64,000 nt of DNA from Sorex araneus (lineage: Eukaryota; Chordata; Mammalia; Eulipotyphla; Soricidae). The DNA lies in NCBI RefSeq assembly GCF_027595985.1, contig NC_073302.1, forward strand, positions 406,574,503 through 406,638,502, given 5' to 3'. The notes beneath the pieces are model-generated. The model did no database searches. It was not told the DNA's origin and saw only the letters and a list, made by a program, of their open reading frames with translations. Positions 12,701 to 18,700 of this stretch are shown here, one piece after another; the stretch's first letter is position 1, and each line of letters starts with the position of its first letter. A program made the translations under genes and the position numbers.

Positions 12701-15700
12701 GGCATCCCATATGGCCCCCCAAGCACCGCCAGGGGTGATTCCTGAATGCAGAGCCAGGAGTCACCCCTGTGCATCATTAGGTGTGACCCAAAAAAGCAAA
12801 AAACAAAAAAACAAAACATGAGCTCTCAAGCCATGAAAAGGCATGGAGGAAATGGAGATGTGTGTATGTTGCTGTGAAAGGACTGATAAGACTTCAAATG
12901 ATCTGATGTTGATATTCTGGAAAAAGCTAAGGCTTTGGAAACAAAAAAAAAAATCAGTGGTTGCAGTTGAAAGGTATAAGTGAGAAATAAGTGACTTCTA
13001 CACATGATACTGTAATGGTAGATATGTGTTATTGTCCAACTGCCAAACCCATAGAATATATAATACGAAGAGAAAATTTCAATGTAAACAACAGGCCCTG
13101 AGTGACAATGATCAGTCAATTGTGTTTTCATAAAATGCACTATGGGGCTGGAGGGATTGTACAGTAGGTAGAGCACGTGTCCTGCATGTGGCCAACCTGG
13201 GTTTAATTCCTGGCACCTGATATGGTCCCACCAAGAGTGATCCCTGAGTGCAGAGTCAGGAATAAACCCTAAGCACCTCTGGCTGAAGGAAAAAAAGTAC
13301 CACTCCAATGCAGAACATCGATAGTACATGAAATGGTGAGAACAGTGGGTGGTAAATAGAACAGTCATTTCTGCTAATTTTCCTGAAAATCATAAAAGTG
13401 CTTTTAAAAAAATCTATTAATTAAAAGAAAGCCAAATTGATTGGACATGGATGAATACCCAGAAGCAGCAGCAGTCTTTTTTGTTGGAAAACTTCAAGTA
13501 ATGAATCCAGTACGTTTCTATCTGCAATCCAAAATATGAGGCAGCACAAAGATGCACAACACTGTACACAACACTGTACACAACACTGAAACCCCTGGGA
13601 CGCAAGTCAGCTGAGCTCAGGGCACTCTAGCAGTCATTCTTTACTCAAGACAAAGCCCACTCAGAAGGACTGACATAGGAGCGTTGAAGCCAAGCAGCTT
13701 CTTCTTCCCTGACTTACAATTACTCTTCTTACGATATTCCTATTCCTCTTCGCATGTTCAGAGAAAAACCTACACTCTTCGAGTCTGTCTGGGGATTAGA
13801 AAGTGCCAGCCAGTAGCAGGAAGAGAGACTCTCCTCCTAAAACACTGGGCACCCAGGCCTGACCTGCCCAGCCCTGCAGAAAAATTCAGTCCTTTATGTC
13901 TGCTGAGAGAGATCTGTCATAGATCACAGAACACCTGGCTACAGAAGGCTGAAGTTCAGTAAAAGCACAACAAAGACAGTAAAGGGACATGAACATGCAG
14001 CTTTAGGTTGAACAACTCTTTCTGTTTTAGAGATGCATTCAATGGCTCCCGGGACTCTACTCCTGGCTCTGTGCTCCGGGGTGAATCCTCACAGTGCTAA
14101 GGGGACCATACGCAGTGCCAGGTATCAAAACAGGCTCAATCACATCAAAGACAAGTAAGTGCATTAACTCCTGTATTATCTCCCTGGCCCTCATGTCAAA
14201 TCTTTTTTTTTTCTCTTTCTTTTTTGGGCCACACCCTGCAGTATTCAAGGCTTATTCCTGGCTCTAAATTCAAGGATAACTCATGGCAGGCTCTGAGTAA
14301 CCAGATGGGGTGCTGAGGATTGAACCCAAGTCAGCCACATGCAAGGCAAGCACCGTACCTGCTATACTATCACTCCAGCCGTCTTGTGTTAATTTTTTTC
14401 CCTGATGCTAAGATGGCTTCCTAAACTAAACTCATTTCAACCATTTTAGTCCTTCTTCCTTTCTCAATTCATCTTATTTTTCCAAATCCTTGCTCTCTTA
14501 GCCACCAACCAGCACGTCACTGAACATGATTGATTGTAACTTGGCTTCCATGTTTCAGAAATAAAATTTTTTTTTAAGATTAAACATGTTCCGCTTTCCG
14601 CTGCCGCTGCTGCACAAGCACGATCCCGGAGGCCAACTGAACTACTTTGGACACGAGCAGCTCCCAGAAATGCCTCCAGACTGTGAACTGAGCCACTGCC
14701 CCTTGCGGCGCCAGCAGGGAAGGGTTTCTCTCTCCAGGCTTTTCCATCTAATGAGCACCACAAAAGGGAAGTAAAAGCTTGTAGTGATGCAATTTCTGGC
14801 AGAATTTTCCCTGGACTTTATACAGAAATCCAAAACAACAGTGGCTGAACAACCTAATATCTCTTAATTGTCTGCAATGTGAAACGGTTCCTTTTTAACA
14901 GGTCTGAGTTTGGGGGGGAAACTCCAAACAATATTAATAGTGAGTGTTTTGTTGAAATATTGAAGGTAATCAAAGTAGCAGCCATTTCTTTAGACTGAAC
15001 TAAGCCATAGCCCCACACCGGCCGAGGAAAGGAAATACCCTTCTTTCTCGGTTCTTTTCCCTTTTGGGGGAGAAACACGGCATGGTGTCTGCCATATTAT
15101 AATGTTTATTAAGCAGGCAAGAACTTGGTTGCGTGGGAAGGGGGAAAAAAATTATGCACTTGGAACATCAGGATGCTTGGGCAGTCTCAGGCCGGGGCTG
15201 ATACCAGTGCACGCTACACCGAGATTCCACCCGGGTGGCCACACTTTTGTGAGGCCGCTTTGCTGCTGATCAACCAGAATCCGGAGGCCAACTAGACTAC
15301 TTTTGGTTCCAGAAACTGCTTGCAGCCATGTCTCTACTCTAGACTGTGAACTAAGTGATAGCCCCACACCGGCCAAGAACGGGAAATATCCTTCTTTCTC
15401 GTTTTTTTTTCCCTTGTCGGGCGGCATGGTGTCAGCCATATTATGAGGACTATTAAGCAGGCACGAACTTGGTGGCGCGGAAAGGAGGAAAAAAAAAGAA
15501 AGTTATGTACTTGGAACAGTTGGACTTCATATCTCTTCATTCTCAGCAATGAAAACTAATTATCAAATGCTTCCTTGGCAGTAGGACTGTATTTTTTGGG
15601 GGGAAACTCCAACAACAATAGTGAATTTTGTGTTGAAATATGAAATGTGATCAAGGTAAAGAGAAAAGGAAGTGAAATTTATCAGTTAAGCAGGCGGGGG

Positions 15701-18700
15701 TGGGGGGGTGGGAGGTATACTGGGGTTTTTGGTAGTGGAATATGGGCACTGGTGTTTGAGTATCGTAAAACTAAGACATAAGCCTGAGAACTTTGTAACT
15801 TTCCACATGGTGATTCAATAAAATAAATTTAAAAAAAAAAAGATTAAACATGTTCCTATGTCTAGACAAAGCTCAATTTTCTAGTCACCAATATGCAAAT
15901 TAAATTGTTGGCATCAATTTCACAGAATGTCCTAAAGTATTTTATTACCTCAGGCAAAATGGTCAAAAAGGAAAAACTGGCATAATACAACTAGTTTTGA
16001 GGCAACCTTGAATTATGCGATCATTTGAGGAAAATGAACTTAACAATGTTCATCAGACCAGGTCTGATTTCTAGTCCCATCTGACATCTTACAACTAATA
16101 TGTAAGTCATACTTTCCTCACCTAACTCCTCCTCAATAACTTCCTTCTTACTATTACATTTTGAGTATAACATTTCTAAGAATGCTCGGGAAGGCAAAAC
16201 CTACAACCTTAAGGACAGCTTATTTCCTTTTAATCTTTTTTTTTGGGGGGGGGGTCACACCTGGCAATGCACAGGGGTTACTTCTGGCTCTGCACTAAGG
16301 AATTACCCCTGGCGGTGCTCAGGGGACCATATGGGATGCTGGGAATTGAACCCGGGTCAGCAGCGTGCAAGGTAAACGCCCCACCCGCTGTACTATTGCT
16401 CCAGCCCCATTTCTTTTTAACCTTAAACCTCCAATTCTGATTGATTCCTGCAGAACCAGGAAGGAAACTATCAAGCAAAAAAGACATAGTTTCAGTTGGT
16501 TCTGGCAAAAAGCTACTCCCTGAGAACTGTAATCAGAGCTGAGTACATTCTCCCTTGCTGCATACTTTGTATAATTCTATTTACAGGTATCACTTGCATG
16601 TCATTGTTTATTTCTGCCACTGCTCTGTGAGTTTTTGAAGAGCCAGGAAATGTGCTTATTTTCCCATCCTCACAGAATAATGCAAAGTTGGGACAGCCCA
16701 AACTATTTTAGGAATAACTGTCAATGGAGAAGGAAAGAAATCAAGAGGGGAAGAAGAGAATGGGAAGTAGTGGGTGAAAAGGCATTAGGGCTTCAGTTAT
16801 ACTGGTGACATGAGTGAGTAGTGTAGCCATATATCCAAAACACAGACTCAACAAAGCTGAAAACATGAGATCTAAGCTGCAACACTGAAACTTTGTAAGA
16901 GGCCTATCAAGTTGACAGGCCAGAATCGGGTGGGGGTTGGGGTGGGGAGGGAAAGTGGTGGAGGGAAGTTGACACTTATGGAGGAATTGCCATTGAAATA
17001 CTAGATTCCTAAAACTCAACTATCAATAACTTGGTAAATCAAGTGCTTTAGTTAAAAAAAAAATAAATAAAAATTAAGACAAAGAAAGAACTGTCAATAA
17101 ATACTGCACTCTAATTACAAAATTAGAATTTTAGAGTTAAAATGACCTTAGAAAACATCAGTCTTTTCAAGCCTGCTAGCCTTTTAATTATTAAAGAAAT
17201 TAAGACATAAAAAATGTAACAGACAATGTGTCGTGCTATACTAGATCTAGGTTTCCTGGTAATCCTTCATTTACTCACATAACTGTTCATTTAAATATTA
17301 ATCACCTATTCAAACGAAAAGGAAATAGTACAATAAAACCACTATGTAAAAATAAAAAAATTATAAAAGAAAGAACAATCCAGATTATCTGCTATAATCA
17401 CCTCCTTCCCTTATTTACTCCACATCATTTGATACCTGACATAATTTTTAAAACTCATATTTTATTAAGTGATAAGAAAGCTAATAACATCACAGCAAAG
17501 AATAGAACCCCTCTAGTTTCCATACAGTGCTCTCTTCACCACAAATACACAGATTTTTCCTTAACTTTAACAGATGTATAATTGGTATTCATAAAATATG
17601 AATTATCTATGTAAATACCCAATTTTTTAAATTTATTTCAATTAGTCAGGTGGTCACAATAATGCTTAAATTTTACTATTGATGTACACAGTTACTGTAT
17701 ACCACCATCACCACTACATAAGGAAAAAAAAAAATTATTTACATTGTCTTACTTCCAAAATAGCACTTCCTATTATCTTTACCAAAAATATCCTGTTCTT
17801 TGTTCATTGATTTTCAGTACACTTGAATTAAGGCAGTGAAAAAAATAAAAGATTGTGAAGGGATGGGTATATTAGTTTTTCAACTAACAAAAATGCTTAT
17901 CAAACATATATTTTGAGGGGCTGGAGTGAGAGCATAGCGGGTAGGGCATTTGCCTTGCACACGGCTGACCCGAGTTCGATTCCCAGCATCCCATATGGTC
18001 CCCCGAGCACTGCCAGGAGTGATTCCTGAGTGCAAAGCCAGGAGTAACCCCTGAGCATCACCAGGTGTGACCCAAAAAAGGAAAAAAAAAAACATATATT
18101 TTGAAAAATCTATTCTTAAAAATAAGTCATACGGTAAATAAACCACAGGATAACATAAATTTTGATTAAAAAATAAAAATGATTAAGGAATGATAAATGT
18201 CACATTATTTGAAGTTGCTGTATGACCCAAAAGACTGAAGTTACCTGTAGATGTAGTTCTTTATCTAGCTGACTGATTCCCTGGGCAAGTTTTGCAAGTT
18301 GTTCAGCAATAACAGCTTGATGAATAGACTGGGAAGTATAAGTCTTCACATCAAAGTCTTCATTTAAAAAATCACTGTAACATTCTGAGGGATGGGGGAA
18401 GATATGGAAATAAGTCCTTCATCATCAATTATCATGCACCAAACCACAGATAGTAATCAAAAGAATAATGATAATCATAATTAGCATACATGAGAGCTTT
18501 CTACATACTAGGAGCTTCTATAAATGTTTTCTATGAGAAGTGGGGAAAGGCAATAGCAGAAGACTTATTATTAAAGCAGAAGAATTAATTCACTGAGAGC
18601 TTACTTTATGCCAGGTATTGATGGAAGGACTGTATACATATCAAGTCACTCAATCCTCATAGACCCGCTGGACCATCCTTTTCCCCATTTCACAGATGAG

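Follow-up and report, generated by a model that had tools for sequence, protein, structure and literature searches.

Composite retroposons with a variable number of tandem repeats (VNTR), namely SVA, LAVA, PVA, and FVA, are described as restricted to hominoids (PMC4432496). SVA and LAVA contain a CT-hexamer/Alu-like 5′ region followed by a central VNTR of 35–50-bp units. In our study, a stretch of 64,000 nucleotides of the Sorex araneus genome (hereafter the window; NC_073302.1, positions 406,574,503–406,638,502 of the forward strand) was found to contain two copies of an element of comparable design, copy 1 at 5985–6713 and copy 2 at 14576–15856. We interpret them, with a probability of about 0.78, as members of a non-autonomous composite retroposon family that would be mobilised in trans by L1 and would carry an L1-style monomer promoter. 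The family is real, abundant, and partly very young, and we hold its structure to be firm with high confidence.

The reports on the VNTR composites describe them as likewise composite, non-autonomous, and variable in their tandem part; their dependence on L1 was shown in cells, whereas in the shrew element it is the structure that points to L1 (PMC4432496, PMC5753468). LAVA ends in an L1ME-derived part, whereas the shrew element ends in the 3′ untranslated region (UTR) of an L1, which is its only L1 part (PMC4432496, PMC5753468). Unlike those of the VNTR composites, its repeats are promoter-like monomers of ~313 bp at the extreme 5′ end; the comparison with SVA and LAVA is one of structure, not of Alu or SVA sequence. 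Tandem Repeats Finder reported no short VNTR within the body of either copy, and only the A-rich end of copy 1 was listed. The 5′ UTR of mouse L1 is described as having variable tandem monomers, YY1-type GCCAT sites (Tf), an unrepeated tether, and monomer duplication (PMC9022269, PMC6454616, PMC11602158), all of which have counterparts in the shrew element; this likeness is one of anatomy only, the sequences not having been compared. Unlike in mouse L1, no open reading frame (ORF) 1 or ORF2 follows, the monomer is ~313 bp instead of ~208–214 bp, and a palindrome stands at the monomer start. HAL1 is also an amplified non-autonomous L1 derivative, but it encodes ORF1p (PMC5753468), whereas the shrew element is without a coding part. 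SpIREs, which are L1 RNAs retrotransposed without internal sequence, are described as generally evolutionary dead ends (PMC5860796); the shrew family, in contrast, has multiplied along several branches, and its 5′ part has not been recognised as L1. No shrew element of such design was found in our searches of the open-access literature, as judged by titles and the beginnings of abstracts. There is an even chance that we are dealing here, outside hominoids, with a coding-free mimic of L1 in which a self-renewing, monomer-built promoter for RNA polymerase II (Pol II) is joined to a captured L1 3′ end, and which ran parallel to L1 for a long time, combined modules of its branches (the type I fusion described below), and is active or recently active in the shrew. 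A young and abundant element without coding sequence would allow a direct test of which RNA features (promoter, G-rich 3′ tract, and poly(A)) suffice to win L1 proteins in trans. It would also show how tandem promoters persist or return after insertions lose 5′ sequence.

The element contained at least one GC-rich monomer of ~313 bp, with a YY1-like GCCATATT site and a 5′ palindrome, followed by a tether of ~200 bp ending in TTGAAATATTGAA, the end of an L1 3′ UTR (~150–200 nucleotides), and a poly(A) tail. The genome searched comprised 2.406 Gb in 65 contigs; the family searches scored the best candidates only, so the relatives reported are the closest ones and their counts are lower bounds. 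With copy 2 as the query, the best 40 of 10,786 candidates were scored (itself included); the other 39 were 85–89% identical, and 38 of the 40 spanned the query from position 16 or earlier to position 1197 or later of 1247. With copy 1, the best 40 of 3,482 candidates were scored (itself included); the other 39 were 95–97% identical, and all 40 spanned the query from position 13 or earlier to 591 or later of 602. The family proposed in a preliminary description of the window, from two copies, was upheld, both copies having many relatives in the genome. Counts of exact words, unlike those of scored relatives, are complete: a 35-mer of the young tether end occurred 1,237 times genome-wide, a 35-mer of the upstream monomer 199 times, and a 65-mer over the young tether/tail junction 646 times, whereas the reversed control of each occurred 0 times.

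The branches were annotated in 26 loci and copy 1 with profiles of the tail and of A, B, and C, the three successive units of copy 2; L009 and L012, which repeat L001 and L002, were omitted. Type I (e.g., L001–L008) showed the order A-B-C-tail, type II (e.g., L010, L011, L016, L021, and L027) was without A and had a rearranged C, and the young type, represented by copy 1, contained one A-like unit and the tail. L017, L023, and L024 were intermediate, and L022 and L025 were too short for placement. The tail followed the end of C, or of the A-like unit of copy 1, in 27/27 annotated copies; these loci were found through the tail or the whole element and could reveal tails without a body, not bodies without a tail. 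Seven young copies differed by 0.4–2.1% from their majority outside CpG, with 1–6 of 38 CpG bases altered, and were on average 96.9% alike, compared with 97.6% for young L1 3′ UTRs; being drawn from the top of the ranked list, they are biased towards the youngest. The expansion of the young branch thus appears to have been contemporaneous with that of the young L1. Ten type-I copies differed from their majority by 2.1–7.6% outside CpG and by 14–34% at CpG.

Marks of retroposition were found at most loci. A repeat of at least 15 nucleotides between the locus's own flanks was present in 15/26 loci, against 0/130 mismatched flank pairs, and one of at least 13 nucleotides in 16/26 loci, against 2/130. 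Nine of ten further type-I end pairs contained target-site duplications (TSDs) of 13–22 nucleotides. In total, 24 TSDs were tabulated: 14 came from the 26 loci, one from copy 1, and 9 from the ten end pairs. The young L081–L086 were left out, and so were L026 (a repeat of 19 nucleotides) and L027 (15 nucleotides), in which the repeats do not adjoin the annotated ends. Their median length was 16.5 nucleotides (13–22), and 17/24 started with AA, a dinucleotide that makes up 11% of those in the window. A T or C stood directly before the TSD in 18/24, and the copies inspected contained A-rich 3′ ends. Mobilisation by L1 is very likely on the strength of these structural marks.

The L1-like 3′ end noticed in the preliminary description proved to be a true match to the 3′ UTR of L1s with open ORFs in the same genome. 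A search of the genome with the Pfam ORF1 profile scored the best 150 of 13,300 candidates, among which were many L1s; in the young L1s (L049–L060), ORF1 (351 codons) and ORF2 (1,286 codons) were both open in 5/12 fetched loci. The final 180–210 nucleotides of both window copies aligned with the end of the open-ORF L1 3′ UTR, with best BLAST E values of 1.8e-11 (copy 2) and 6.9e-12 (copy 1). A profile of six L1 3′ UTRs matched 8/8 composite copies across the last ~130–160 nucleotides (E 1.6e-12 to 3.1e-23). In a tree of tails, nine composite tails were separated from eight L1 tails with a split support of 100%; three of the eight are L1-like 3′ ends, and ORF2 was shown for the other five only. 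Given this clean split, the L1 tail was most simply captured once and has evolved separately since. Two other assignments were considered. The body is not the 3′ UTR of an old L1, as the ORF2 remains upstream of the copy in L026 might suggest, since the composite has its own TSD within that 3′ UTR. That the tether, with a short by-eye likeness to L005u, is also from an L1 3′ UTR was not supported by the profile search, in which the alignments begin in the G-rich tract. The ORF2 remains in L026 (5–679) were just 40–49% identical to the young L1, from an older divergent lineage with a composite copy inserted in its 3′ UTR. In the window, a separate short L1-like 3′ end was found at 50745–50915 (+); it was about 61–62% identical to the composite tails and clustered with the L1 tails.

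The absence of a coding part, also claimed at the outset, was upheld: the longest ATG frames of ten type-I copies were 61–140 amino acids, in differing frames and strands, and tblastn with the ORF1 of shrew L1 detected nothing in the window, in L001–L028, or in 27 pieces downstream of young monomer arrays. At gathering thresholds, Rfam models matched nothing at either copy, and the sole hit in the window was a tRNA at 144–214. A short interspersed element (SINE) derived from a Pol III RNA, with a tRNA-, 7SL-, or 5S-like head, was thus without Rfam support at either copy.

Three young copies (L081, L082, and L085) began with GACCGCCGAGATGTGATCCC, followed by the palindrome GGCCGCAC-NNNN-GTGCGGCC (with one mismatch in L085) and by TCTCCGCAGCTGCACAAG or a sequence near it. 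An extra upstream monomer was present in L081, L082, and L083, at 313 bp from the last monomer in L081 and L083; the 3′ part of the upstream monomer was unlike that of the last monomer, which continues into the tether. Extra 5′ monomers occurred at 6/40 young and 10/40 type-I loci, as counted from the rows of the best-scored loci, so the number of 5′ modules does vary as first described. In a tree of 33 monomers, the A units and their upstream copies (support 99) joined the young monomers (100), and the B and C monomers stood opposite, with a split support of 91. From this split, type I looks like a fusion of two monomer lineages, the monomer and tether of one having been set before an element of the other. 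The upstream and last monomers of L081 were sisters (support 98), which is what a gain of monomers by duplication would produce. The second GC-rich palindrome, in the tether (CGCGCGGCCGC..GCGGCCGCGCG), was complete or almost complete in L082 and L083, whereas the five other young copies had it interrupted or shortened, as if it were often miscopied.

The 5′ end was defined by a TSD in 21 tabulated copies, of which 12 started at the palindrome's 3′ foot, 6 about 40–70 nucleotides upstream of the foot, 2 nearer the 5′ side of the palindrome, and 1 just within the monomer; copies without a clear TSD (e.g., L002, L003, L008, L061, and L082) and 5′-truncated ones are omitted from these counts, the queries, which began at the palindrome foot, disfavoured shorter copies but not longer ones, and L081–L083 were picked for their extra monomers. 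The isolated hairpin had a folding energy of −16 kcal/mol in 6/7 matched instances from young copies. Because so many copies begin at its 3′ foot, the palindrome may halt reverse transcription. We suggest that reverse transcription stops at the foot and that the upstream start marks the 5′ end of the RNA; the reverse assignment is possible.

The sequence GCCATNTT was present in 6/7 young copies, in both monomers of L081–L083, and in B and/or C of 8/8 type-I copies examined. In mouse, a YY1 site with a GCCAT core is reported to be required for the activity of Tf_I L1 monomers (PMC11602158). With these signs, the balance of probability moderately favours the shrew monomers being a working promoter, by analogy with mouse. 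In the mechanism that we propose, they would serve, like mouse L1 monomers, as an internal Pol II promoter containing YY1 sites. Transcription would begin at the 5′ end of a monomer or close to it (at GACCGCCGAGATG in the promoter reading), pass through the monomer or monomers and the tether into the captured L1 3′ end, and yield a polyadenylated RNA. Target-primed reverse transcription of this RNA by L1 ORF2p would follow at A-rich sites, where the TSDs are found. Monomers may be regained by duplication, as the tree supports in one copy. A single joining of the monomer-and-tether promoter to an L1 3′ end would have been followed by at least three branches.

Several observations weigh against the L1-mobilised, monomer-driven family proposed here. 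No flank repeat of at least 13 nucleotides was found in 10/26 loci (L002, L003, L008, L010, L011, L014, L016, L019, L022, and L025). The upstream and last monomers of L083 were not clearly sisters. Two folded 5′ ends were unexceptional compared with shuffles (z −1.4 and −0.9), and the 5′ end of L085 favoured a different fold, so the hairpin block is put forward only as a suggestion. GCCATNTT was absent from 1/7 young copies (L085) and from unit A of the type-I copies examined, and, the motif being short, its counts stand without a chance expectation. The YY1-like site lies ~200 nucleotides inside the longest shrew copies, whereas the starts in mouse type G and T monomers are reported to lie close to the YY1 site (PMC6454616). 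One of 26 young arrays, L110 (G000:C1:97602983-97603213), did not lead to the tether or tail; the unrelated DNA downstream contained AATAAA and a poly(A)-like run, and the monomer there may have been joined to another transcript. Lastly, no L1 carrying the composite 5′ part was present among 32 ORF1 loci, so its derivation from an L1 5′ UTR is presumptive.

Two alternatives concern the source of the 5′ part. It most likely came from the 5′ UTR of an unsampled L1 lineage, and a non-L1 source is less likely. A propagating deletion or splice derivative of L1 has a little under an even chance: an L1 mRNA without ORF1, ORF2, and most of the 3′ UTR would have been retrotransposed and become a master, in a more extreme form of the loss seen in SpIREs or HAL1. 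It differs from the composite family that we prefer solely in fixing the origin. Such a loss from a monomeric L1 would leave a monomer, a tether, and an L1 3′ end; L1s with monomeric 5′ UTRs are described in several mammals besides mouse (PMC9022269), and the young L1 of the shrew has a GC-rich 5′ end with a tandem unit in 3/12 loci (112 bp repeated about 143 bp upstream). Against this stands the comparison of modules with shrew L1 5′ UTRs called for at the start: units A, B, and C and the body of copy 1 had no match in the 12 young L1 loci (E up to 1e-4) or in a second set of 20 ORF1 loci (E up to 1e-2), four of the latter being of the same young lineage (97–99%) and older L1 lineages being not exhaustively sampled. 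Unit A scored 26.5 against one young L1 5′ UTR, marginally above the maximum of 25.5 in 200 single-base shuffles, and unit C (15.5) and copy 1 (20.5) were within the shuffled range. Of the 26 young monomer arrays followed downstream, 25 reached the tether and/or tail (L090 through an extra piece, L113), and 0/26 led into an L1 ORF, no match to ORF1 or ORF2 being found in the 27 pieces; these lie about 330–560 bp downstream, and of the arrays 18 were from tied best matches and 8 on contig C1 without a listed exact tether word nearby. The lack of an L1 match in the body would also suit a 5′ part that was taken from a host promoter, a first exon, or a different repeat and became attached to an L1 3′ end through readthrough, splicing, or template switching, as in SVA or LAVA. 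L1 is reported to fuse with other RNAs (PMC13174262), and LAVA is described as a composite with an L1ME-derived 3′ part (PMC4432496). However, no source locus was identified, none having been searched for, and tandem monomers with a tether are more typical of L1 5′ UTRs; we regard such a capture as doubtful.

The preliminary description had set random internal deletions of one full-length L1 against its proposal. Independent deletions or truncations of ordinary L1 copies would explain why the tail is L1-derived, but they are refuted by the one junction in all annotated copies, the exact 65-mers across the young junction, and the absence of the 5′ part from the sampled L1 5′ UTRs; in addition, the copies are near full length with their own TSDs, and the type-I copies are each close to their majority. 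The family may, with odds somewhat short of even, already be catalogued in Repbase or Dfam as a repeat of the shrew genome, since de novo repeat finders would probably catch so abundant a family. The literature result given above speaks against this, but weakly, since the repeat libraries were not searched.

Copy 2 (+) was found to be flanked by the TSD AAGATTAAACATGTTCC, which is identical at 17/17 positions between 14576–14592, just downstream of a T run, and 15840–15856. Unit A (14593–14977) contained the first part of a monomer, which clusters with the young monomers, and the full tether to AATCAAAGTA, and was without GCCATNTT. Unit B (14978–15257) was a 5′-truncated monomer with a monomer 3′ end and a degenerate palindrome; it aligned with a young upstream monomer along most of its length, palindrome included. 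Unit C (15258–15658) contained the first part of a monomer and a tether ending in TTGAAATATGAAATGTGATCAAGG. It was followed by the L1 3′ UTR-derived tail (15659–15829), with the G-rich tract, GGGCACTGG, TTTGTAACT, and GGTGATTCAATAAAATAAA, and by the poly(A) (15830–15839); the tail was delimited by pairwise alignment with an L1 3′ UTR and by the six-L1 profile, and the junction between body and tail is uncertain by some tens of nucleotides. Two readings of unit B and its borders were considered. Derivation of its end from a local tRNA-type SINE, as GATTCGACCCGGGTGGCC at that place in L026 might suggest, was dropped, since three queries against the window matched no SINE even at E values up to 1. 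Splicing at the A/B junction is not indicated, the letters there fitting, by eye only, no simple donor-acceptor join.

Copy 1 (+) was flanked by a TSD of 19 nucleotides with one mismatch (5985–6003 and 6695–6713; 18/19), so both copies are TSD-flanked as first described. Its single, last monomer (6004–6201) began just past the palindrome position of the longer copies and contained GCCGCCATATTA at 6176–6187. The tether (6202–6401) contained remains of the second palindrome (CCGCGCGGCCGC) and the segment AGTGAGG..TTGAAATATTGAA..AAACAG, followed by the L1 3′ UTR-derived tail (6402–6595) and an A-rich 3′ tail (6596–6694) that has grown into an AAAT-type microsatellite.

Over its whole length, copy 1 aligned with the last unit of copy 2 (15262–15839; 63% over 635 columns), and its 5′ part with the first unit (14604–14977; 62% over 418 columns). 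The truncated middle unit was nearest to the last unit (77% over 205 columns). In one alignment, the tails of the two copies were 78% alike and bodies A and C were 68% and 62% alike to copy 1, whereas unit B was only 46–49% alike to unit A and copy 1, yet 76% to unit C. The preliminary count of one module in copy 1 and about three in copy 2 therefore holds by homology, but copy 2 joins two monomer lineages and does not repeat one module three times. Likewise, the supposed shared GC-rich core GCCATATTA occurred just twice in copy 2 (15091 in B and 15435 in C), because the first unit is without it, and the units are still homologous. The AGTGAG..TTGAAATATTGAA segment was present as claimed, but twice in copy 2, and so belongs to the unit and not to the tail alone. 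The observed/expected CpG ratio was 0.40–0.68 in the 5′ bodies and 0.19–0.22 in the 5-kb flanks of copy 2.

Elsewhere in the window, an unbroken hnRNP C-like frame of 284 codons was found at 27561–28412 (+); it matched a PDB sequence with an E value of 1.3e-62 and resembles a processed copy with an intact frame. Dense, long GC-rich open frames were found in the ORF list at 23300–24400 and 43900–45200, and judged from that list only, these are perhaps the CpG-island promoters of genes.

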